From a virus: a DNA stretch of 45,886 nucleotides. The stretch spans positions 1 through 45,886 of IMG/VR virus record IMGVR_UViG_3300042553_000422; one strand, 5' to 3'. Shown in pieces: positions 14,539 to 44,529 of the stretch; the stretch's first letter is position 1; the number at the start of each line of letters is the position of its first letter. The notes below the pieces were generated by a model that made no database searches, was not told the origin of the DNA, and worked only from the letters and a program-made list of their open reading frames with translations. The translations under genes were made by a program, and so were the position numbers.

Positions 14539-14794
14539 CATCGAGACGGTGCGGAACTACGTCGCGTGGCGTCGCAATCCCGGCGTGACAGGCGACACGA
14601 TCGTCACCGACGCCCTCGCGCGGGTGCTGGCGGTGGCGGACGTTGCTGTCCGGTTGCAGAAGAACAGCGCAGCGATGCTCCACACAAAGACCGATGCCGA
14701 GTTCGACCCGCTGGCGCTGGAATCGTCGGCGCTGCTGACTGAACTCGACACCGCCGTCGCCGCCCTGCGCGGCGCGACGGAGGTGGGGGCATGA
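14531..14794 (+). CDS. Small helical protein of unknown function (87 aa)
   Basis: ATG 14531 is well placed after GGAGGTG (14519-14525). The sequence is almost all helix-forming (DALARVLAVADVAVRLQKN, ALLTELDTAVAALRG). It lies directly before the Gp157 gene, overlapping it by four bases, so the two may be made in a fixed ratio. No family is recognised. Confidence 0.5.
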   Translation: MGDIETVRNYVAWRRNPGVTGDTIVTDALARVLAVADVAVRLQKNSAAMLHTKTDAEFDPLALESSALLTELDTAVAALRGATEVGA

Positions 14795-15471
14795 CCAAGA
14801 AGAAGACGCCGGTGGTGGACGAGTCGGCACTCCCGGCCCTGCCGACCAGCCTGTACGACCTGACCACCGAGTATCTCGACCTCGTCAGTACGCTGGAACA
14901 GACCGAGGGGGAGATCACGCAGGAGCAGGAGGACGCGCTGGATGCGCTGGTCGGCGGCAAGGCCATCAAGTTCGACAACTACTACCGCATCCGGCAGCTG
15001 CTACTGCGGCGGGAGGGCGGTCTGGCCGACGAGATCACGCAGCTGCAAGCCCGGAAGAAAGTCACGACCAACGCCATCGACCGGTTGGAACGGCTGATCC
15101 GGCTGGACATGGAGCGGATGCAGCAGGACACCCTGTATGGCACCATCCACACCATCAGCGAAGTCGGGGTCGGCGGCAAGCGGAAGGTCGTGATCGACAC
15201 CACGCCGGACAACCTGCCTCCGGAGCTGCGGAAGGTGACGGTGACCACGGCAGTGGATGCCGACAAGATGCGAGAGTGGCTGGAAGAAGCTGCCGAAGAC
15301 GGCGACCTGATGAAGAAGCAGATCGCCGTCGCGGGCGGCACGTTCGACATGGAGTTCGTGCGGCTGCCAGATGGGACCATCCATCTGTGCGAGCCTGTGC
15401 TGGACCCAGCCTCCCCGCAGATCATCCTTGCCACCCTGCAACCGCGAGGCACCCGCCTCGCATGGAAGTGA
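14791..15471 (+). CDS. Gp157-family protein (226 aa)
   Basis: Residues ~20-160 match the pattern of the siphovirus Gp157 family (PF05565). That pattern comprises an opening SLYDLTTEYLDLVSTLEQ, a KAIKFDNYYRIRQLL segment, a long coiled coil (ADEITQLQARKKVTTNAIDRLERLI) and a closing block with KRKVVIDTTPDNLPPELRKV. Family members sit beside SSB, Erf or Rad52-like recombination genes, and one is linked to phage resistance in Streptococcus. Here it lies in the same operon as an SSB-like protein and a RusA resolvase. The C-terminal ~60 residues form an extra beta-rich extension. The biochemical role of the family is not settled. Confidence 0.75.
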   Translation: MTKKKTPVVDESALPALPTSLYDLTTEYLDLVSTLEQTEGEITQEQEDALDALVGGKAIKFDNYYRIRQLLLRREGGLADEITQLQARKKVTTNAIDRLERLIRLDMERMQQDTLYGTIHTISEVGVGGKRKVVIDTTPDNLPPELRKVTVTTAVDADKMREWLEEAAEDGDLMKKQIAVAGGTFDMEFVRLPDGTIHLCEPVLDPASPQIILATLQPRGTRLAWK

Positions 15472-15478
15472 GGGCACC

Positions 15479-15859
15479 ATGAACGCCAGAGAACAGCTGC
15501 GGGTACTGGCGGTGGAGCACCCCGAGCTGGACCAGAGCGAACTGGCCTCCATCATCGGGGTGTCCCGGCAGCGGGTGCATCAGCTGGTGCATTGCCCCGT
15601 GGACCCCATCCCGGTGGTCCCAAGGAACAACAATCGCCGGGTGGTCTCGCAACAGGCGCTGGTCCGGCTGGTCGAAGCGGTCCAGCGGGTGATGCGGGAA
15701 TCCCCTGAGGCTTGCACATGGAAGGAGGTCGCCCGACTTGCCAAGATCACCGGCAACGTCGGGTCCCTGCTCCGAGGGAAAGAGCCGACCTTCTATCAGG
15801 TCATCAGCCAAACGCTGGATGCCCGCCGCAGTGCCAAGAAGGGGGCACCCCCGCCATGA
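15479..15859 (+). CDS. HTH DNA-binding protein (126 aa)
   Basis: ATG 15479 follows AGGG. Residues ~18-38 (QSELASIIGVSRQRVHQLV) form a clear helix-turn-helix with the usual S-R-V-Q recognition helix. A second helical region (TWKEVARLAKITGNVGSLLRG) may be another winged or HTH element. The C-terminus is short and basic. The position between Gp157 and the replication gene suggests a regulator of early transcription or an origin-binding accessory protein. The four-base overlap with the next gene points to coupled expression. Confidence 0.6.
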   Translation: MNAREQLRVLAVEHPELDQSELASIIGVSRQRVHQLVHCPVDPIPVVPRNNNRRVVSQQALVRLVEAVQRVMRESPEACTWKEVARLAKITGNVGSLLRGKEPTFYQVISQTLDARRSAKKGAPPP

Positions 15860-16128
15860 CCACGCTTGCCACACGCCAGACCGTACTGCATCAGGACCAC
15901 GTTGACCAACTGACCGCCGCCCTCGCCATGCCCACCACCACCCCGATGGAACAGTGGGTGCGGCGGGACGCCCTGCTGGATGCGCTGCCGCCCCTCTTGA
16001 AGAGGCACCTGTTGACGGCCAGCCACGATGTGGTGGCGGGGTGTGCCGAGTTCGTGCTGGGCTTCGGCAAGGGCGCCATGGATGTCGTCCGATTCCTGCT
16101 GAGGCACGAGGGGTGGGTACAGGGCTGA
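15856..16128 (+). CDS. Small protein of unknown function (90 aa)
   Basis: ATG 15856 overlaps the previous stop in an ATGA arrangement; the longer in-frame reading from 15712 would overlap the HTH gene. The product is helical with a moderately hydrophobic C-terminus (DVVAGCAEFVLGFGKGAMDVVRFLLRH). No domain is recognised. It is the last gene before the 236-base gap that precedes the replication gene. Confidence 0.5.
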   Translation: MTTLATRQTVLHQDHVDQLTAALAMPTTTPMEQWVRRDALLDALPPLLKRHLLTASHDVVAGCAEFVLGFGKGAMDVVRFLLRHEGWVQG

Positions 16129-16364
16129 AACCCACAACCCCCGCCGCAGTCGAGGACTGGGCGGGGGAGGGGAGGTGTACTGCGACGAGTAGGCACAACG
16201 AACTGGAGTGGTCGGCTCCGGGGCATACCTTCTGCCCGTCGCCACCGTACTACACCGACCAAGGTAGGTCGGACTTGCGAGAAGTGCAAGCAGGTTGTAG
16301 CGTAGGAAGCAGGCTGGTCGAGGGATCAGCCGACGAGCAGGACAACAATCGAACGGAGACACCA
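16129..16364 (+). other. Non-coding leader upstream of the replication gene, with hairpins
   Basis: No gene is supported here. It contains one copy of the iterated 10-mer (16140-16149), a perfect 6-bp hairpin (CCGACC 16255-16260, GGTCGG 16267-16272) and a second small hairpin (CTTGC 16274-16278, GCAAG 16286-16290). The replication gene's ribosome site follows (GGAG near 16354). A TGACATCAG at 16366-16374, over the start codon, repeats the core of the 22-bp iterons found further into the gene. I see no convincing sigma70 promoter. A regulatory leader or part of the origin is possible. Confidence 0.45.
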
Positions 16365-17174
16365 ATGACATCAGACGCAGTGCGGCTGCTGGTGCAGCTG
16401 GCACAGGCCGAGCAGGATGCCGGTCGCCCCATCCCAGAGTCCATCGCAGCCCAGCTGCTGGCTCTGGTGGCAAGCATGTACGAGTGTACCCCTGCCGCCA
16501 GAAAGCGGCGACACCGCGTGACATCCGCGTCCCGCGAGCGTGACATCAGCGTCCCGCAAGCCGCCGCTTTGGGAAGGGGGGTAGGGGGGATGGGTGTAGT
16601 TGTAGTAGAGGAAGCAGTTCCCAGAGAGAACAGCAACAGCGCAGTACAGAAAGAACCATCACTGGATGATCTCTTGGTTCAGGAAGAGAAGCCTTCGATG
16701 GTGGTGTACCAGACGAACCGAGGGCAGCTGCCGGTTGCAGCACAGGCGCTGCGCGAGTCGGTGATGAAGCGGGTGGAAGGGGTGCGCCGGGGCAACGCCC
16801 GTCGTGAGCGGTACGAGGGGCTGGCCGATGCCGTGTTCATCTACTGGCAGGGCACCTACGAGAAGCCCGCCAGTGTGCGGATGGATGCCCGCCGCCGCAG
16901 CGTGATCGTCCGGTCCCTGACCGAGAACGAGGGGGACCTGAGTGAATTGTTCTACGCCCTCGACGGTGCCCGGAAGAGTGACTTCCACATGGGCCGAGGC
17001 AAGTATGCCGGGGGCAAGAAGTACGACACCCCCGAAGCGATCCTGACTGACCGCAGCCGGATCGAAGGACACGCCGAGATGATGGGCGACTACGCCCGTG
17101 GCGTCCCGCACCCGCAAGCCGAGAAGTTTCTGGCCCTGACCGACCCCCAGCCCCAGTTGCAGGGGGTGGCATGA
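16365..17174 (+). CDS. Putative replication initiator / helicase-loader-like protein (269 aa)
   Basis: ATG 16365 is chosen for its GGAG site; the frame stays open far upstream but no other start is supported. Residues ~1-45 are helical. Residues ~45-115 are a low-complexity linker whose DNA carries repeats. The C-terminal domain (~130-255) contains DARRRSVIVRSLTENEGDL, a WAID-like LFYALDGARKS, then FHMGRGKYAGGKKYDTPEAILTD. That arrangement is typical of the C-terminus of phage replisome-organiser (O/DnaD-like) proteins, which load the host helicase. No polymerase or helicase gene is seen, so this protein would direct the host replisome. Assignment is by pattern, not by search. Confidence 0.55.
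   Translation: MTSDAVRLLVQLAQAEQDAGRPIPESIAAQLLALVASMYECTPAARKRRHRVTSASRERDISVPQAAALGRGVGGMGVVVVEEAVPRENSNSAVQKEPSLDDLLVQEEKPSMVVYQTNRGQLPVAAQALRESVMKRVEGVRRGNARRERYEGLADAVFIYWQGTYEKPASVRMDARRRSVIVRSLTENEGDLSELFYALDGARKSDFHMGRGKYAGGKKYDTPEAILTDRSRIEGHAEMMGDYARGVPHPQAEKFLALTDPQPQLQGVA
16502..16594. other. Candidate replication origin inside the initiator gene
   Basis: Two adjacent 22-bp direct repeats (16516-16537 and 16538-16559) differ at two positions only. Because 22 is not a multiple of three, the copies are read in different frames, so the repeat is kept at the DNA level. A perfect 9-bp inverted repeat brackets them: AAAGCGGCG (16502-16510) and CGCCGCTTT (16562-16570). Next comes a tract with four G-runs of 3-6 separated by two-base loops (16571-16594), a G-quadruplex pattern, then less GC-rich DNA (16595-16680). 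Lambda's origin likewise lies inside its O gene with iterons. Confidence 0.55.
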
Positions 17175-17353: not shown

Positions 17354-17685
17354 CCGCCACGCATCGGGTGCCCCGGTACAACCTGACCCAGACGGTGCAG
17401 GACTTGGCCAGCGGGGTGAAGGCGGGGATGCTGAAGCCGGAGATGGCGGACCACATCCAGTCCGTCGTGAAGAAGCACGACGGGGACGTCCTGCCCTTGC
17501 CGGGGTGCCACATCTGCGGGGCGCAGGTCATGGAGAACGTGGTCACCCTGCGGCTGGAGATCGAACACGACTGGGCCAAGCACAGCCGGGGCGGGCAAGC
17601 GCAGCAGATGGCCAACGCCGCCGACGCGGTCGAGGCAGCGCGGGCTGCGTCCCTGCGGCGGGCGAGAGAGCGGGACGAGGAGTGA
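17350..17685 (+). CDS. Unknown early protein with a CxxC motif (111 aa)
   Basis: ATG 17350 overlaps the previous stop and has GAGGT upstream; the in-frame reading from 17278 would overlap the small gene. The centre holds PGCHICGAQV, a single CxxC that could be half of a zinc site, and the C-terminus is a charged helix (ADAVEAARAASLRRARERDEE). It directly precedes RusA, with a four-base overlap, so a role in DNA metabolism is plausible but not shown. Confidence 0.5.
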   Translation: MTATHRVPRYNLTQTVQDLASGVKAGMLKPEMADHIQSVVKKHDGDVLPLPGCHICGAQVMENVVTLRLEIEHDWAKHSRGGQAQQMANAADAVEAARAASLRRARERDEE

Positions 17686-18053
17686 GTGACGGGGTCTACC
17701 GGGTGCAGCTGCCGTGGCTGGCGCTGTGCCCGGACAACCAGCGGCTGGGTAAAGGCAGCGGTGGGCAGCGCAGCTTCCTCACCAACAAGTACCGGGACGC
17801 GAAGGCATGGTCGGTGCTGCTCATGCGGAAGGCCACCCCGCCCGCCGCAGACCTGCCGTGCCGGGTGGTCGTCAGGTTCTGGGTCCCGAATCGGGCGAGG
17901 CGAGACTGCGCCAACCTGTGGAAGCTGATTTCCGATGCGATGCAGGAAGCCGGGGTGATCGAGGATGACACCCTGTTCTGGGACATCCGACTGATCCGCG
18001 AGGGGATGGACAGGGCAAACCCCCGCGCCGAGATCGAAGTCACCCCGATGTGA
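17682..18053 (+). CDS. rusA: RusA-family Holliday junction resolvase (123 aa)
   Basis: GTG 17682 overlaps the previous stop (GTGA). The product has the RusA (PF05866) core: N-terminal strands, then VVVRFWVPN, then RRDCANLWKLISDAMQ with Asp75, Asn78, Lys81 and Asp85, followed by GVIEDDTLFWD with Asp95/Asp96. These fit the conserved metal-binding acidic residues and Lys of the family, and 123 residues matches its usual length. RusA enzymes are dimeric nucleases that cut four-way junctions. In phages they resolve recombination or replication intermediates before packaging. It is the last gene of the early rightward operon. Confidence 0.85.
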   Translation: MSDGVYRVQLPWLALCPDNQRLGKGSGGQRSFLTNKYRDAKAWSVLLMRKATPPAADLPCRVVVRFWVPNRARRDCANLWKLISDAMQEAGVIEDDTLFWDIRLIREGMDRANPRAEIEVTPM

Positions 18054-20035: not shown

Positions 20036-20290
20036 TCAGAGTCCTCGGAGAAAGTTGCGGATGGTCTGCGGCTTCCCATCAGGGAGGCCCAGCTGGTCGG
20101 CGGTCTTGTCGGTCAGGATGGAGCGGGTGATTGGCCAGCCCATCCGCCGCAGGTCGATCCATTCTGCGGCGGTGGCACGGGCGTAGGCGTCGGTGATGTC
20201 CAGCGTCGAATCATTCGGGGCCAGCTCCCTCCGCAGGACCGATGCATACGCATCGGCCCAGAGGGTGGCGCGTTGGGGCGTGACTCGCAT
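20036..20290 (-). CDS. Small protein of unknown function (84 aa)
   Basis: ATG 20290 overlaps the stop of the upstream partner gene by one base; a much longer in-frame reading would lie wholly inside that gene and was rejected. The sequence is helical (RATLWADAYASVLRRELAP, TDAYARATAAEWIDLRRMGW) and ends with GLPDGKPQTIRNFLRGL. It is the third gene of the unit with the AAA+ ATPase, so it may belong to the same complex. No family is recognised. Confidence 0.5.
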   Translation of the reverse strand: MRVTPQRATLWADAYASVLRRELAPNDSTLDITDAYARATAAEWIDLRRMGWPITRSILTDKTADQLGLPDGKPQTIRNFLRGL

Positions 20291-21486
20291 CAGCCCTCCC
20301 GGCCAGCGGCGCGGACTTCCATCAGGTGCCCGCCCGTCGCAGTGCGAATCAGTTCCAGTGCGCTGTCCACCAAGTCCACGGGCACCGTCGCGGCACTCGG
20401 GTTCCGGAAGAAGTCCTGCACTTCCTGCCCCGTCATCTCGGGCAGTCGGCCCACCACTGCCCCGCCCGTGGCTTCCTGCCACAGGCTGCCCAGCTGGGAC
20501 CCCCATGCTTCGTCCTTCACCACCAGCACCACCCCGCCGTGTTCGTGGTTGCCTCTGTGCAGTGCGCCGTTCGCCACCCCGTAGGCCCCGAACTGGAGCT
20601 GCTGCGTGGCACAGGCCGCCGCCAGTACCCGCAGGTCCACTCGGTCGTGGGCTTCCTTCACCGTGATGACGCTGCCTTGGAGCGGCCCGCCGCTGGAGCC
20701 GGTGGATGTGAGCAGCCCGACCTGCACCCGCACCCGCCAGCCCGCCTCTTCCAGCAGGAGTGCCGCCGCCACCATCGGCGCGGCCCACATCAGCAGCTGG
20801 GATGCGTCGGTCACCGGGCAGACCTGCATCATGCACTGCTGGCACCCGCCCGGCGTGACCATCAGCGTGACCACGGGACTGGACACCCGCGCCCGGCGCT
20901 TGGTGCGGCGGAAGGCGTGGTCCCAGTCCCCGTTCATGGCCCGCATCGCATCCAGCGTGTGGCCCTCGGCCCCCCACTCCTGCCGAGGGCGCAGGTCCTC
21001 TGCGGCGGGCAGTCGGCGGCGCAAGGCGTCGGCCACCACCCCCAGCAGGTTCGCGTTCTTGGCAATCACAGGGCCTTCCCCCCGCAGGGCGTTCATCACC
21101 ACCGTCGGGGACCAGACGGGCTTGGAACCCGGACCCCGGTCCTGCTGCGTCCAGTTGTTGAGCCAGCTGGCCCCTCGGGCATGGGTGTACCCGTTCCACG
21201 AGATGTCGGTCGGGGCTGGCCCCCAGCCAGCGGGGCGCGGAGCCAGTGCCTTGTGGTTCATGGCGACCCCCAGCTTCTGGATGTTGCGGAACCCATCCAT
21301 GTCGTAGCAGACCAGCGAGGCGGTCTCCTTCCTCGCAGGGGCGTCGTACTTCACGATGCTGCCGCCGCCGATCTCGCTGGTGTCGTAGCCCGTGATGGTG
21401 ACACGGGCGTCATGGTCCACCTTGGACGTAAGGTAGTGCTCGTAGCGGTGTGCTTCGGGCAGGGTGCTCTTGTTGCGGCCTTTCAT
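20290..21486 (-). CDS. Probable partner of the AAA+ ATPase (398 aa)
   Basis: It lies 31 bases downstream of the ATPase. The N-terminal third is polar (GYDTSEIGGGSIVKYDAPAR, FRNIQKLGVAMNH). The C-terminal two-thirds alternate strands and helices (VSSPVVTLMVTPGG, MVAAALLLEEAGWRVRVQVG, then VITVKEAHDRVDLRVLAAA). This 'value-helix-value-then-VDL' layout resembles phage proteins found next to CobS-type ATPases, which are thought to play the VWA/CobT-like substrate-adaptor part. I do not see a clear MIDAS (DxSxS), so a VWA assignment is not claimed. The neighbourhood is the main evidence. Confidence 0.45.
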   Translation of the reverse strand: MKGRNKSTLPEAHRYEHYLTSKVDHDARVTITGYDTSEIGGGSIVKYDAPARKETASLVCYDMDGFRNIQKLGVAMNHKALAPRPAGWGPAPTDISWNGYTHARGASWLNNWTQQDRGPGSKPVWSPTVVMNALRGEGPVIAKNANLLGVVADALRRRLPAAEDLRPRQEWGAEGHTLDAMRAMNGDWDHAFRRTKRRARVSSPVVTLMVTPGGCQQCMMQVCPVTDASQLLMWAAPMVAAALLLEEAGWRVRVQVGLLTSTGSSGGPLQGSVITVKEAHDRVDLRVLAAACATQQLQFGAYGVANGALHRGNHEHGGVVLVVKDEAWGSQLGSLWQEATGGAVVGRLPEMTGQEVQDFFRNPSAATVPVDLVDSALELIRTATGGHLMEVRAAGREG

Positions 21487-21517: not shown

Positions 21518-23284
21518 TCAGAACGTGGGTTCGACTTCGGCTTCGACTGCGGCGGGCGCGGTGTCGGCAATGCCACAGGCCAGTCGGTCGTTCTCGGACC
21601 AGTCTTCGGCGCAGATTCGCATGGCTTCGGCCAGCGTCCGGCCCCCCGCCATCAGCTTGGAGCAGCTGACGATCCAGCGGGTGGAGATGATCTCGCGGAT
21701 GCCCGCCTTGGATGCCGCCTTCCGCAGGGCCACCACCGCAGCGTAGAGCCGCTTCGCGTCGTTCTTGTTGCCCACCCCGCCGCAGATCGCCCGTTCGATG
21801 GTCGGGTCGTAGCCCACCGTGATGACACCCCCCTTGTAGCGGTCCTTGGAGGCACCGTCCAGCTGGGCGCGTCCCACATACACCCGATCAGCACCGTTGC
21901 CGTAGGTGTTCATCGCGGAAATCATCACAAAGTCCGCGTGGCGCACGATCCGGCGACCATCGGGCAGGGTGAAGTAGCTGTTTGCCAGCGCCGTGTTGAT
22001 GGCGAGCAGCGAGGCGGGATCGGAGTTGTCCATCTCGTCGGCCAAGAACACGCCGCCGTGCTCGAAGAGGTGGGCGAAGAGCGAGACCCGGTAGTTGTCC
22101 ACCCCGGTGGCGATGTTCGGGACCAGTCGGCCCGTCCAGATGGTCTCCGACATGCCGGGGGAGCAGGTCGCGTCCCCCACTTCCAAGCCCAGTCGGGTGG
22201 CGATGATCGCGGCCATCGTCGTCTTGCCGCAGCCCGCCGGACCCACCCACTGGATGTTCTTGATCCCGCAGCCGATGCGGAACAGGGACTCCACGATCTC
22301 GGGGCGGTCGCCCTTCTCGGTCTGGAAGGTCTGCGTCGGGGTCTGGAAGACATGGATCACGGGTTCCCCTGCGGCGGGCGCTGCGGCAGCCGCTGCCTTG
22401 GCTGCGTCCTTCACCGCTTCGACGAGCGCCGCCTGTATCGCGGCCATGTCTTTCTTCACTTCGTCGAGCGTGGCCCCCGTGGTGCCCATGAAGGTGGCGA
22501 GCGGCCCCGTCAGGATGGCACCGATGGCCGACACCTGCTTCGCCACCGACGGGAACGCATCCCGCACGGGCGTAGTCATGGTGGAGTCGAGTCGTTCCAG
22601 CGTGGCGACACGCTGCTCCAGCGTGGCGTCCTGCTGCTGTGGCGGGGTGGCAGCGGGGGGGGTGCCCATCTGCTGGAGGGCCTTGGCGAGGGCGTCGGCT
22701 GCGTGCTTCTGGTCGTCGGTCATGTCGTCGGTCTCGTCGTCGGAAGTGGTCTCGGCGGAATCCTGCGGGGAACCTGCACCTGCGTCCTGCAACTCGTCGT
22801 ACAATTCCTGAGTGGTCATGTCCTGCGGGTCCTTCTCTGCGGCGGGGTCGGCCTTGCCCCCACCCGTGCCGTCGCCTTCCTCGTCGCTTGTCTCGGGGCT
22901 GGGCGCGTCACCCTTGCCGTGGGCGTGGAGTTCGTCCTTCGCAGCGGTGGACCCCTGCCCAGAGGCATTCAGTGTGGGGCCGTTGCCTTGATCCTGCGGG
23001 CGGACCCCAAGGTCTCGGTCCAGTGGGCCGGGGAACAGTTGCCGTCCGAGCACGGTCTGGGCGTCGGCAAAGTTGAGGCGGACGCTACCCCACCCCCAGT
23101 TGGTGCCCACCCGCTGGGCGTACTTGGCGTGGTAGTTGTTGCCCGACAGGTGGGCCGTGATTTCCACCAGTTCGCCGGGGTTGACCCGGACGGCAGTCTC
23201 GCCATCGGGGTGCAGCCCGTCGCAGGTGGTGGTGAGGCGGACCCGCTGCCCCACATCGAACGCGGTCTTCTTCGGTGTTGCCAT
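21518..23284 (-). CDS. CobS/MoxR-type AAA+ ATPase with SH3-like head (588 aa)
   Basis: Residues ~8-75 look like a small beta-barrel (GQRVRLTTTCDG, GELVEITAHLSGNNYHAKY, GSVRLNFADA). An acidic Ser/Asp/Glu linker and a coiled coil follow. The ATPase domain starts near 335: Walker A GPAGCGKTT (347-355), Walker B GGVFLADEMD with Asp416/Glu417, sensor 1 SAMNTYGNG, and the GRAQLDGASKDRY segment that in CobS/MoxR proteins precedes the arginine finger region. Such ATPases form hexameric rings that remodel a substrate with a partner protein, presumably the next gene. In phages their substrate is unknown. The 40 bases coding Walker B are copied in the gene at 24400. Confidence 0.8.
   Translation of the reverse strand: MATPKKTAFDVGQRVRLTTTCDGLHPDGETAVRVNPGELVEITAHLSGNNYHAKYAQRVGTNWGWGSVRLNFADAQTVLGRQLFPGPLDRDLGVRPQDQGNGPTLNASGQGSTAAKDELHAHGKGDAPSPETSDEEGDGTGGGKADPAAEKDPQDMTTQELYDELQDAGAGSPQDSAETTSDDETDDMTDDQKHAADALAKALQQMGTPPAATPPQQQDATLEQRVATLERLDSTMTTPVRDAFPSVAKQVSAIGAILTGPLATFMGTTGATLDEVKKDMAAIQAALVEAVKDAAKAAAAAAPAAGEPVIHVFQTPTQTFQTEKGDRPEIVESLFRIGCGIKNIQWVGPAGCGKTTMAAIIATRLGLEVGDATCSPGMSETIWTGRLVPNIATGVDNYRVSLFAHLFEHGGVFLADEMDNSDPASLLAINTALANSYFTLPDGRRIVRHADFVMISAMNTYGNGADRVYVGRAQLDGASKDRYKGGVITVGYDPTIERAICGGVGNKNDAKRLYAAVVALRKAASKAGIREIISTRWIVSCSKLMAGGRTLAEAMRICAEDWSENDRLACGIADTAPAAVEAEVEPTF
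22025..22064. repeat. 40-bp exact repeat within the ATPase Walker B (second copy 24604-24643)
   Basis: The 40 bases 22025-22064 are identical to 24604-24643 and are read in the same frame in both genes, giving EHGGVFLADEMDN. The lack of any synonymous change over 40 bases argues for a recent copying event, or for gene conversion keeping the copies equal. Confidence 0.9.
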
Positions 23285-37681: not shown

Positions 37682-38227
37682 ATGGCCGTCCAAAGTGGAA
37701 TCCCGTTCCCGCAGCAGCCAGCGGTGGACTTGGTCGATGTCAACGGCGAGCGCGTCTTTGGTGCCACCGGCACTGTGACGGCGGCACTCGCCTCTGGAGT
37801 GGGCACCCTGTCAGGGACGCTTACCGCAGCCGCTGCGGCGGGACGAGCCACCTTCGTCGGGCTGGCGGTCACCGTGCCGCCCGGCTCTCCTGACCCTTCC
37901 CCCCACCAGATTCGGTTTACCAGTCCGGGGTTGCCGGATGTCTTGTCGAACGTTTTCGATGTCGTGCCTGCGGTCACGTTGGTCCCGACCCGGCTGGCTT
38001 TTGGCAGCACGCCGGTCGCCGTCAACGAGAACGCTGTCATGTCCTCGGTGCAGGTGCGAGTCGAAACGGCGGACGGCACACTGGCCCCGTCGTATGTCGG
38101 CACGATCACGCTGTCTATCTTCTCCGTCGTCTACATCAGCGGCACGGAACGCGATGTCGTACTGCGAGCCACTGCGCCGGGATTGACGACGGCCTTCAGC
38201 ACCTCCATCCGGGTGACTCTCGTATGA
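37682..38227 (+). CDS. Ig-like tail protein (181 aa)
   Basis: Two bacterial Ig-like (BIG-type) domains: VDLVDVNGERVFGATGTVTA...RATFVGLAV (~15-65) and a second starting near LVPTRLAFGSTPVAVNENAV (~100-175). QIRFTSPG near residue 77 recurs at the start of the next gene, which suggests domain shuffling between them. Ig-like domains are common accessory parts of phage tails and bind weakly to cell surfaces. It overlaps the next gene by four bases. Confidence 0.65.
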   Translation: MAVQSGIPFPQQPAVDLVDVNGERVFGATGTVTAALASGVGTLSGTLTAAAAAGRATFVGLAVTVPPGSPDPSPHQIRFTSPGLPDVLSNVFDVVPAVTLVPTRLAFGSTPVAVNENAVMSSVQVRVETADGTLAPSYVGTITLSIFSVVYISGTERDVVLRATAPGLTTAFSTSIRVTLV

Positions 38228-40200
38228 CGTTCCAGATTCGCTTTACCTCTCCCGGTGCGACCCCGCTGGTCGGGGCCACCACTGGGTTTAGTGTAATTCC
38301 GCCAAGCGGTCCGCCGCTGTATCCCGGCGAATCTGCTCGGTACGCTCCGACGCAGCGCGGTGCGCTGACGGTCGAGTACAACACGACGACAAAGCGGCAT
38401 CAGCCAACTGCGACAACGGCCGCGTGGCTGGCCTACGCGACAAACGAGCCGACCTCCTCGGTCACCATTACAGAACAAGGGTCGCCCGCTCTCAATCGTG
38501 CAGCATTGGTCGCCGCGATTGCTGGCAGAGGAACAACAGGCCCATGCAAGATTCGGATTGCCAACGGCATCCGTATCACTGGGGAAGAAATCGACATTCC
38601 GCCTGTGTATACGTCGGGCGGGATTCTGCGTTGGACGTACATCGAATCGGTGTCAGTCGGCGCAGGGACGCTGCGTGGTGAAGGGCAGCGTGTGTCGCTG
38701 GCAGATGATGCGTCGTTGATGGCAAAAATGGAGATGCAAACCTACAACCAGCGCATCTTCAATTTTACAAACCAGACCAACGGCGTTCGCCTCACAGGGC
38801 TGCACTTCCGAGTGGACACTGATCTTGTCGCAAGTATCCGGGCGAGCCAATTCGGCCAGAATGCAACAGTTGGCGGCCCCGGTGGCGGCAATTCAACGTG
38901 GACGTACATGGGGTATCTTGGATGGGACGTTGGCAATTATAGTACGTCACCGTTGACTCGTCAGACTGGCGAGCCGCAAAACATCATCGTGGATCGCTGT
39001 ATTCTTGAAGGCGACGATCAGATTCGATTCCGCCGACTGCTTCTTGCCAATTTCCATCGGTTCGCGCTCATCAATTCGTGGGCCGAAAATGCTGGTGACA
39101 GCAACAACGGTGACGCGCAAGTCATCGCGGTGTTGTCCTGCACGGGCGACCACTACATCTGGAACAACGAGATGGCGTGTGCATGGGGCGAACATGTCAT
39201 TTACGGTGGCGGCAATGCGTGGGCAGAGCAATATGTGCCAAAAGACATGGTGGTTGGCTACAACCGGCTCACGTTCCGTCCGCGCTGGCATACGCAGGGG
39301 CGGCTGCACAAGAACATGCTGGAAACCAAGATCGGTCAGCGGATCACATGGGAAGGCAACCTGATCGAAAACTACTACGGCTTCAATCGGTTGGGGTCGC
39401 AGTTGTATGCCATTGTTGCCAAGTCGTCTGACCAAGGCACCGGAGAGGTCTTCGCTAGTGCCTCGGATATTGTGATCCGACTTAACAAGCTAGTCCGGTC
39501 GTCTGGCTTCTTCGTCATTCAGGGGGGTGACTACTTTGGTGGCGGAGATTATCGCGCTACGCACAAGGTCGATTTCTCGCACAACGTTCAGTTGCCGTGG
39601 AACCCCGCCGACCTTGGCATTGCCGAAGAAATTACAACGCTTCATGGCCTCCGTATTGGCGGGGAACGCACTGGAACATTTTTTGGGTCGGACGAATGGA
39701 AGCGTGTCACAGACATCGCCATCCGGCATAACGCATGGTACTGCGCGACTCGTATCCAGCCGACAGAGAACTACAAGTGGGCGATGAGCTTTGGAAATGC
39801 CGGAAACCCTCCAGAAATGCGCCGATGGGACATCAGCAACAACGTTTTGGCTGGGTTGGATATTGCTGGGGGGTGGGGGATCATTGCCAACTATGAAGAT
39901 TCGCCAAACACTACAGTCCCACTGCCGGTCAGTTGGACGTTTCCAGTCAAAACTGCTGTGGTGTCTGAAGGCAATCTGGTGACAGGTATCAGCGACCAAG
40001 CCGCACAGCTTTTTGCAACACTTGGCAGCACTAACCGAGGCGCTCTTACTTTGGCCGCTGCGGGCATCAACAGTACGACGCTGACTCTTGGCACCGGCAC
40101 GATTGGGAAAGGGATTGCACAAGACGGTGGCGATCCGGGGCCAGATTACGACTTGATTGCGGCGTGCATGGTGACCACCGAAACCGGACGAGGCTATTAA
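38224..40200 (+). CDS. Right-handed beta-helix tailspike candidate (658 aa)
   Basis: After an Ig-like leader (QIRFTSPGATPLVG) the body shows many short N-rich coils (RIFNFTNQTNGVRLTGLHF, NIIVDRCILEGDDQIRF, HYIWNNEMACAWGEHVIYGG). It also has the LHKNMLETKIGQRITWEGNL then IENYYGFNR pattern typical of parallel beta-helix (pectate-lyase-like) proteins. Such proteins serve as receptor-binding spikes that often cut or deacetylate surface sugars. Acidic residues that could be catalytic are many, but none can be singled out. From about 38500 the DNA is clearly poorer in GC with different codons (AAT, ATT, GCA, ACA), and the iterated 10-mer is absent, both signs of recent transfer. Confidence 0.65.
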   Translation: MTFQIRFTSPGATPLVGATTGFSVIPPSGPPLYPGESARYAPTQRGALTVEYNTTTKRHQPTATTAAWLAYATNEPTSSVTITEQGSPALNRAALVAAIAGRGTTGPCKIRIANGIRITGEEIDIPPVYTSGGILRWTYIESVSVGAGTLRGEGQRVSLADDASLMAKMEMQTYNQRIFNFTNQTNGVRLTGLHFRVDTDLVASIRASQFGQNATVGGPGGGNSTWTYMGYLGWDVGNYSTSPLTRQTGEPQNIIVDRCILEGDDQIRFRRLLLANFHRFALINSWAENAGDSNNGDAQVIAVLSCTGDHYIWNNEMACAWGEHVIYGGGNAWAEQYVPKDMVVGYNRLTFRPRWHTQGRLHKNMLETKIGQRITWEGNLIENYYGFNRLGSQLYAIVAKSSDQGTGEVFASASDIVIRLNKLVRSSGFFVIQGGDYFGGGDYRATHKVDFSHNVQLPWNPADLGIAEEITTLHGLRIGGERTGTFFGSDEWKRVTDIAIRHNAWYCATRIQPTENYKWAMSFGNAGNPPEMRRWDISNNVLAGLDIAGGWGIIANYEDSPNTTVPLPVSWTFPVKTAVVSEGNLVTGISDQAAQLFATLGSTNRGALTLAAAGINSTTLTLGTGTIGKGIAQDGGDPGPDYDLIAACMVTTETGRGY

Positions 40201-41394
40201 ATGGCATACACAATTATCCGGTTTGGCAACGATTACCCTGCGGCGACAGGAGAAGTTGTTGGAGACGTAATTGGCGCACGCTGGGGTACGGATGCTTTGA
40301 TGTATCCGTACACCCTTGGAGGCGTTACGCTGGGAGCGGGCGTTGATGAGTTTGGAGGTTCTGCCGCAATCGGAACAAACACAACAGTTCCGTGGACTTC
40401 AGGTGACGACCTTGCGCTACGAGGGCGGTGGCGGCTGACAAACTCAATCGCAGCCCGGACGTTTCGTATTAACCTCCCCGCCGCGGGACAGTATCGTGTC
40501 ATTGTCGGCTGCTCTGCAACAAGCTATCAGCGAAGCCGCTGGCGTATTAACGATGGTGTTGGCGGCACAAACCGGCTCGACTACTCGTGGTCTTCCCCTG
40601 TTGTTTTTGGCGACGGCGATGAAACGCTGAATCAGGATCAGTGGGTTGACCAGAACGGAGTAGCCCGCGCTATTGCAACAAATGCTCTGACGGCAACCCC
40701 CTCTGTTTTAACGTTCAGCACAGGGGTTCTGGAGTTTGTGCTCGGCGGGCACGCGGGCGGTGTTTTTGCGTCAGATGTCAGTTTCATTGCGTTTGAGCCA
40801 GTTGCCGCTTCCGGCCCGACTGTCTCCAGCATCAGCCCAACGAGCGGGCCTGTCGGAACGCAAGTCACGTTCACCGGCACGAACCTCGGTGGTACGTCTC
40901 TCGCAAACGTGAACGGCACGGCGATGACCGGCATCCTCAACGACAGCGCCACGCAGGTTCGGGCGACGGTGGGTGCTGGCTCGACGACGGGCGCAACGGG
41001 CCTCACTGCCACAGGTGGCAGTGTCACGGGTGGCCCGACGTTCACCGTCACGACACCCCCGCCGACTCGCACCGGGTTCCGGGTCGTGTCTGGCTACCCT
41101 GCGCTGGGGTCTATCCCTATCAACGCCGTGCTGACGCCGCCGCTGGTCTTGCAGGCGACTGCGGCGGGTCCGGTAGACACCACCGACGGGGACGGCACCA
41201 CCGTCACCATCGGCATCGACATCGTCTTGACCGGGGCCGAAGTCGTCAGCGGAGGAACTGCCGTGCAGAGCGGCGGTCTGGTAACATTCTCCAGCTTGGT
41301 CCTGCGGCCTGTCACCAGCCTGCTCGGAACACTGGCAGTTCCTGCCGCCATCGGCTTTGCGACGTTCGCGGGCCTGCGGATTCGGTTCCAGTAA
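40201..41394 (+). CDS. Multidomain adhesin with sugar-binding-like and IPT/TIG domains (397 aa)
   Basis: It starts directly after the previous stop. Residues ~1-195 form a beta-sandwich-like domain (GRWRLTNSIAARTFRINLPA, AGQYRVIVGCSATSYQRSRW). They are followed by an IPT/TIG domain (PTVSSISPTSGPVGTQVTFT and GTNLGG, ~205-285) and a last BIG-like domain. The first ~600 bases share the lower GC of the beta-helix gene, while the TIG and BIG parts return to the phage's own composition, so the join between foreign and native DNA lies near 40800. A tail adhesin role is inferred. Confidence 0.6.
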   Translation: MAYTIIRFGNDYPAATGEVVGDVIGARWGTDALMYPYTLGGVTLGAGVDEFGGSAAIGTNTTVPWTSGDDLALRGRWRLTNSIAARTFRINLPAAGQYRVIVGCSATSYQRSRWRINDGVGGTNRLDYSWSSPVVFGDGDETLNQDQWVDQNGVARAIATNALTATPSVLTFSTGVLEFVLGGHAGGVFASDVSFIAFEPVAASGPTVSSISPTSGPVGTQVTFTGTNLGGTSLANVNGTAMTGILNDSATQVRATVGAGSTTGATGLTATGGSVTGGPTFTVTTPPPTRTGFRVVSGYPALGSIPINAVLTPPLVLQATAAGPVDTTDGDGTTVTIGIDIVLTGAEVVSGGTAVQSGGLVTFSSLVLRPVTSLLGTLAVPAAIGFATFAGLRIRFQ

Positions 41395-43265: not shown

Positions 43266-43534
43266 TGGCTACCGTCCTGCCGCTGCGCCCGATCCCGCTG
43301 CCGACCCGAGAGGCTGCTATCCTCTCGGACATAGCACAGGCGTTCGCGGCGGGGGAGCTTGGGGTAGACCCGGCGCTAGAGGCTCGCGTTGTGGCGCTGG
43401 AAAACACGGTGTCTATCATTCTGGCCTCACTGGCTGCGGCGGGCATCCCGCTGGTGACGCCGCCCGGCACGCTGGACTTCTCGAACGCCAACAACTCTGG
43501 GCTGCTGGCGCTGTTCACTATTGGAGGGTTCTGA
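43265..43534 (+). CDS. Small protein of the fibre cluster (89 aa)
   Basis: ATG 43265 shares a base with the previous stop. A Pro-rich start (LPLRPIPLPTREAAILSDIA) leads to a helix (ALEARVVALENTVSIILASL) that looks like a trimeric coiled coil. A Gly/Asn-rich end (DFSNANNSGLLALFTIGGF) follows. It could be a trimerisation module or chaperone for the adjoining fibres. An iterated 10-mer lies at 43434-43443. Confidence 0.5.
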   Translation: MATVLPLRPIPLPTREAAILSDIAQAFAAGELGVDPALEARVVALENTVSIILASLAAAGIPLVTPPGTLDFSNANNSGLLALFTIGGF

Positions 43535-44529
43535 TGGGAACAATCAATGTTCGGGATTCTGCGGGCACGGTCGTGGCGGTGGCCCGCATCCCCGATACCG
43601 GCAACGCAGTGGCGGATGCCGACAGGATGCCCGTCATTGGGCCGTTGACCAACGACCAGCTGCGGGCAACGGCAGTCCCAGTCTCGGGGACCTTTTGGCA
43701 GGCCACGCAGCCCGTCAGCATCGCCTCGTCTATCGTCGTTACCGGGCCAGCCACAGACGCCCAGCTGCGAGCCACCCCACTGCCGGTCAGCGGCACGATT
43801 GCGGTCAGCAACATGGTTGCGGCAGGGCTGACTGATACCCAGCTGCGGGCGGCAGCGGTCCCGGTCACTGCCGCAGCCCTGCCGCTGCCATCGGGTGCCG
43901 CCACAGCTGCCGCGCAGACCACCGGCAACGCCTCGCTGTCGAGCATGGACGCAAAGCTCCCCGCGCTCTCCGGTGGTCGCATCCCGGTGGTGCTCCCGGC
44001 GGGCGGCTCGGGGCTGACAGACGCTGAGTTGCGGGCAACGCCTGTGCCGGTGAGCGCGGCGGCGCTCCCGTTGCCGACAGGGGCCGCGACGGCTGCCGCG
44101 CAGACCAGCGGCAACGCCTCACTGTCGAGCATGGATGGCAAGCTGCCTGCGCTCAGTGGTGGCCGGATTCCCGTGGTGTTGCCAGCAGGCGGCGGCGGGT
44201 TGACGGATGCCGAATTGCGTGCCGCGCCGGTGCCGGTGGAGGCCATCGGTGAACTGATCGAAGCCATCGAAGCGCAGCGGATGGCGCTGCAAGCCCTCGT
44301 CCGCACCATCGGCCAGTCGATGCCCGACACCGCTGGGCGCTTGCGCGTGCTGGTCGATTCGATCTCGGCGTCGTTGACGCTTGCGACGATCACGACGGTC
44401 GGCACCGTCACGACGGTGTCCACGTTGACGAACCAGACGCAGATCGGTGGCCTCGCCGCGACCGAGCAGATCCCCTCGCTGATGCGCCTCGGCGCAGACA
44501 GCGCCCGCCGCAACATTTCCGTCACCTGA
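43534..44529 (+). CDS. Fibre protein with two 62-residue repeats (331 aa)
   Basis: ATG 43534 follows GGAGGG. Recurrent LTD-QLRA--VPV units appear through the N-terminal half. Then two 62-residue units in tandem start at 43825 and 44011 (GLTDTQLRAA and GLTDAELRAT), each with AAQT-GNASLSSMD and RIPVVLPAGG, and a third partial unit begins at 44197. The C-terminal ~110 residues switch to helices (IEAIEAQRMALQALVRTIGQ) and end with strands. This repeat style is common in long thin tail or baseplate fibres. Repeat number probably changes by recombination. Confidence 0.65.
   Translation: MGTINVRDSAGTVVAVARIPDTGNAVADADRMPVIGPLTNDQLRATAVPVSGTFWQATQPVSIASSIVVTGPATDAQLRATPLPVSGTIAVSNMVAAGLTDTQLRAAAVPVTAAALPLPSGAATAAAQTTGNASLSSMDAKLPALSGGRIPVVLPAGGSGLTDAELRATPVPVSAAALPLPTGAATAAAQTSGNASLSSMDGKLPALSGGRIPVVLPAGGGGLTDAELRAAPVPVEAIGELIEAIEAQRMALQALVRTIGQSMPDTAGRLRVLVDSISASLTLATITTVGTVTTVSTLTNQTQIGGLAATEQIPSLMRLGADSARRNISVT
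43825..44196 (+). repeat. Two tandem 186-bp coding repeats
   Basis: Units 43825-44010 and 44011-44196 are in frame and differ at scattered third positions and a few residues; a third begins at 44197 and stops after about 14 codons. They extend or shorten the fibre by 62 residues per unit. Confidence 0.8.

Follow-up and report, generated by a model that had tools for sequence, protein, structure and literature searches.

The DNA analysed here is the whole of a 45,886-bp virus contig that carries terminase, portal and head genes, and we refer to this entire stretch as the window. Its rightward early gene run includes a gene for a putative O-type replication initiator and a gene for a RusA-like resolvase. 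The features at this locus are as follows.

14791-15471, plus strand: upstream gene for a Mu Gam-like end-protection protein (PHROG 253, E=1.1e-16).
16129-16364, plus strand: non-coding stretch upstream of the initiator gene, with a hairpin at 16138-16167.
16365-17174, plus strand: putative O-type replication initiator gene, 269 aa (from the translation; C-terminal domain, 48.5 bits).
16365-16529, plus strand: small helical N-terminal piece, residues 1-55, as predicted by AlphaFold2; no winged helix recognised.
16502-16510, plus strand: left arm of a perfect 9-bp inverted repeat.
16516-16537, plus strand: putative iteron 1, 22 bp.
16538-16559, plus strand: putative iteron 2, 22 bp, 20/22 identical to iteron 1.
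16562-16570, plus strand: right arm of the perfect 9-bp inverted repeat.
16571-16594, plus strand: four-run G-tract with the top G4Hunter score of the window; a possible G-quadruplex of doubtful function.
16590-16724, plus strand: probable DNA-unwinding element, which includes the least stable 100 bp of the record.
16809-17087, plus strand: conserved C-terminal domain, residues 149-241 (family profile).
17685-18053, plus strand: RusA-like Holliday junction resolvase gene (Pfam RusA, E=1.5e-10; PHROG 34, E=1.2e-19).

No sigma-70 promoter match was found in the non-coding stretch that precedes the initiator gene. The hairpin within it is strong and G+C-rich, lacks a T-run, and falls just downstream of a gene that ends at 16128, ahead of the initiator gene. 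No P-like helicase loader was recognised in the genes that separate the initiator from the RusA-like resolvase; relatives often have one. A preliminary description of this DNA had proposed cumulative GC skew as a check on an origin near 16.5 kb. The curve has no turning point there, a result that we read as uninformative in either direction, and cumulative AT skew has none there either.

The two adjoining repeats within the initiator gene span 16516-16559 and differ at two positions, as previously described. They form the sole adjacent repeat of 15-40 bp at 90% identity or above in the window, and tandems of 18-40 bp appeared in none of 300 simulated windows (Markov-2). The 22-bp period moves the reading frame, from codon phase 1 in the first copy to 2 in the second, so that the encoded peptides differ. 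As a coding control, the gene was resampled synonymously 5000 times with the peptide fixed and the codon usage of the record. The best period-22 match among these resamplings was 18, and the observed 20/22 was never reached, so that protein and codon usage do not explain the repeats, which is in keeping with the earlier claim that they are kept as DNA. Each repeat contains a dyad, GCGTGAC-n6-GTCCCGC, with 6/7 pairs, which is not significant against shuffles. Elsewhere in the window the repeat core recurs about as often as chance predicts (6 matches against 3.9 expected), and a scan of viral contigs with a 17-base iteron pattern returned two contigs with one match each, about chance by our estimate. 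A 9-base piece, TGACATCAG, does overlap the ATG at 16365, being located at 16366-16374, but this overlap carries little weight.

Directly 3' of the repeats and the G-tract, and within 30 bp of the repeats, lies the stability minimum of the record: in terms of nearest-neighbour energies, no other 100 bp among the 45,886 bp is as unstable as 16590-16689. What had been described as a less GC-rich stretch is thus a stronger feature than was claimed. The G+C content of 16595-16724 is 50%, against about 66% overall, and 100 bp as unstable as this arose in none of the 5000 synonymous resamplings. Synonymous codon choice in the stretch favours low G+C (z=-5.6, rank 24 of 8143 40-codon windows); the dozen lowest-ranking all fall in an A+T-richer block near 40 kb. 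Since the synonymous resamplings never match them, the repeats and the A+T-richer stretch both look as though they are kept as DNA. In a control, the same calculation placed the least stable 40 bp of lambda gene O just 3' of iteron 4.

Whole-protein searches of Pfam, NCBIfam and phage records with the 269-residue product gave no match. The AlphaFold2 model has confident helices at residues 2-18, 25-40 and 43-54, a low-confidence and mostly unstructured part from about residue 56 to 122, then helices again towards the C terminus. The predicted disordered linker is the stretch encoded by the iterons, the G-tract and the A+T-richer DNA and, given this predicted disorder, its residues would be free to follow a requirement of the DNA. 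A fold search of the PDB with the model found nothing significant; a library of predicted viral structures returned a few matches with probabilities of 0.99-1.00, but with E>0.001 and uninformative names. No winged-helix or comparable N-terminal DNA-binding domain was found, either with Pfam or in the model, which has only about 55 helical residues there. We take this absence, judged in part from a predicted structure, as a caution on how the protein might bind DNA, and not on the homology of its C-terminal domain.

It was this C-terminal domain that linked the protein to a family. A tblastn search matched residues 153-242 to a gene on a Pseudomonas psychrotolerans plasmid (P0002; E=2e-6) that sits near a phage recombination gene. 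Alignments grown from the plasmid match recovered viral loci (66 and 80) along with 14 in genomes, and a search with one family member reached 47 phage records. All eight alignment members match PHROG 16167 ('replication initiation protein') and seven of the eight match PHROG 18020 ('replication initiation O-like'). The window's domain scores 48.5 bits against a family profile built without it and carries the motif of the C-terminal domain of O-like initiators (F.xW ... SxxHMG ... LI.R); the direct match of the domain alone to PHROG 16167 is weak (E=0.0058). In several named phages of the family, the next gene encodes a replication P, DnaC-like or DnaB-like protein. These comparisons support placing the C-terminal domain of the window's gene in the phage O-like initiator family (PHROG 16167/18020), in keeping with its earlier description as replication-initiator-like. 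We claim membership for the C-terminal-domain family only and not kinship with lambda O, whose own C-terminal domain scores 0.5 bits against the family's profile, that is, no match.

Neither by DNA nor by whole protein were close relatives found among phages, viral contigs and genome contigs. One near-identical contig (L004, with a 100% identical terminase) ends at about 20.5 kb of the window, short of the segment. The comparison, with distant relatives, is accordingly one of architecture. Homologous C-terminal domains occur in Vibrio phage VvAW1, Marinomonas phage P12026, Xanthomonas phage PBR31, Acinetobacter phage Ab9 and the P. psychrotolerans plasmid gene, and most of these O-like genes have tandem arrays before the domain. 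Their N-terminal parts are longer than the roughly 51 residues that precede the repeats in the window, and are varied, with DUF1376, Phage_rep_O, HTH_36 and others where a domain was recognised.

We examined the position of such arrays across 63 non-redundant family members, counting 35 of them, the window among these, as full-length. In each full-length gene the search covered the 300 bp that precede the C-terminal domain, with 286 coding tiles from the same loci as the control. Tandem arrays precede the domain in 28/35 genes compared with 24/286 control tiles (8%; Fisher p=1e-19, a value that treats the relatives as independent, which they are not, and that includes some purine-rich, low-complexity arrays). 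The array count may be a lower bound, because the repeat finder misses lambda's own, unevenly spaced iterons. Seventeen arrays have a period of at least 18, and in 16 of these it is 20-24 bp. The frame-breaking 22-bp period of the window recurs in Acinetobacter phage Ab9 (L187), in L098 and in L067, where there are 3.8 identical copies; some other relatives have periods that are multiples of three. The linker is the most unstable part of the locus in 14 of the 35, against 6.6 expected, which is moderately above control, and this holds in 6/7 loci with a G+C of at least 0.53.

Two further observations concern the same family. Twenty-eight non-redundant short genes (L016, L042, L060, L101, L110 and others) encode the C-terminal domain only; most of the products have about 120-145 residues, they lack a winged helix, and almost no arrays lie nearby. 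In the tree these genes make up one side of a branch; the window's own place there is unsure on account of its long branch. The short proteins possibly recruit helicase without iterons. The deposited record of Vibrio phage 1.183.O (L177) marks 2342-2371, within the homologous gene, as a CRISPR spacer, an annotation that probably arose from flanking intragenic repeats.

From these computed features we infer that the segment is very probably a phage replication origin of the iteron type, lying within its own O-type initiator gene. The suggestion of a lambdoid-type intragenic origin made in the preliminary description thereby gains support from the C-terminal family, the family-wide position of the repeats and the adjacent stability minimum. 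Under this interpretation, the initiator, or a complex containing it, would bind the two 22-bp iterons, and bending and torsion would then melt the A+T-richer stretch at 16590-16724. The conserved C-terminal domain would recruit the replicative helicase or a helicase loader, and theta replication would start with the host replisome. Counting against an origin are the presence of only two repeats, a dyad that is not significant, a loader and a winged helix that were not recognised, the lack of a skew turning point, and a linker instability that in relatives exceeds the control only moderately.

Known systems offer close parallels. In lambda, two iterons and the adjoining AT-rich region are enough for unwinding (PMC7466680). 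The window resembles both ori-lambda, within gene O, and the origins of Stx phages in that its iterons fall where the initiator gene encodes the linker, and in lambda the A+T-rich melting region likewise follows just 3' of the iterons. However, lambda has four iterons and Stx phages six, as opposed to two repeats in the window; their iterons are inverted repeats, which dimers bind in the lambda type, and no G-tract is present, whereas the window has a G-tract and no recognised winged helix. In Bacillus phage SPP1, gene 38 encodes the origin-binding protein and also contains oriL, with its direct repeats and AT-rich unwinding element (PMC6316719). The likeness to the window lies in this architecture of repeats and an AT-rich element within the gene. 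SPP1 has a second origin, oriR, elsewhere, whereas no second copy of the repeats was found elsewhere in the window's record.

For a phage that has hardly any relatives by sequence, the segment provides a probable origin. The analysis also points to a broad and mostly unannotated initiator family, from Vibrio, Acinetobacter, Legionella, Pseudomonas, Xanthomonas and environmental phages or prophages, that keeps tandem repeats in the DNA of a protein linker, even though no homology is detectable between its C-terminal domain and that of lambda O. With such a linker-repeat rule, origins would become predictable in many phages that are still uncharacterised.

Because no winged helix is recognised, what reads the iterons is a testable question, and a weakly matching HTH-like protein encoded at 15371-15859 is one candidate. 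A further possibility is a variant of the lambda-type origin. In this variant, the winged helix would have been lost and the helical piece of about 55 residues, or a separate partner, would read the iterons. A strong G-quadruplex motif between the iterons and the melting region would hold the displaced strand open or set the direction of unwinding. The G-tract is indeed present at 16571-16594, where it had been described, and its G4Hunter score of 2.64 is the highest in the window and was reached in none of 60 simulations. As a quadruplex element, however, it is borderline: 199/5000 synonymous resamplings (4%) reach the observed score, and it may largely follow from the Gly-rich linker. No G-tract was found in the linkers of relatives, where G4Hunter scores are at most 1.6, and the comparison with relatives does not support the quadruplex reading. 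On quadruplexes at iteron origins, the single paper matched in the collection searched concerns yeast ORC. We consider this variant improbable.

Two-copy sites are common for regulators, and the repeats might instead be an operator, bound by the initiator in autorepression or by the HTH-like protein encoded just upstream (a weak match), with the A+T-richer stretch incidental. Yet the repeats are some 150 bp into the gene and not at its promoter, relatives have their arrays in the corresponding place ahead of the C-terminal domain, and the adjoining stability minimum is the strongest in the record and is not driven by coding, all of which makes an operator unlikely. Another explanation would be a recent slippage duplication, neutral as DNA, in a linker that is predicted to be disordered and, like linkers generally, tolerant of duplications; the array periods divisible by three in some relatives would fit this. 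It is hard to reconcile, however, with a 22-bp period that shifts the frame so that the copies encode different peptides, and that recurs in three relatives, with the rarity of arrays in control coding tiles, or with the neighbouring A+T-richer stretch being likewise constrained as DNA, and we regard slippage as very unlikely.

The 9-bp inverted repeat brackets the repeats as previously noted, and was rejected as a separate signal, being one among 40 like pairs with a loop of at most 60 in the window. That this inverted repeat and two hairpins, or a quadruplex in the mRNA, act in RNA to tune translation of the initiator seems highly improbable: the RNA fold of 16502-16570 is stable (z=-3.0; 1/200 shuffles equally stable) and the G4Hunter maximum of the window sits in the G-tract, but about 9.5% of the record's 69-nt windows fold as well or better, the same stretch, which was picked after being seen, folds as DNA with z=-1.75, and the G-tract is both attainable from the peptide via codon usage (4%) and absent in relatives.

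Elsewhere in the window, three features were recorded apart from the initiator locus. G+C drops to 0.545-0.594 across the structural ORFs at 38000-41000, a block that was perhaps acquired recently. On the minus strand, a CobS-like AAA ATPase gene (21518-23284; PHROG 249, E=4e-41) stands beside a gene with a DUF7192 match (20290-21486). Finally, a 186-bp tandem unit, whose length is a multiple of three, is present in about 1.8 copies at 43897-44238, inside the ORF at 43534-44529 near the tail genes.
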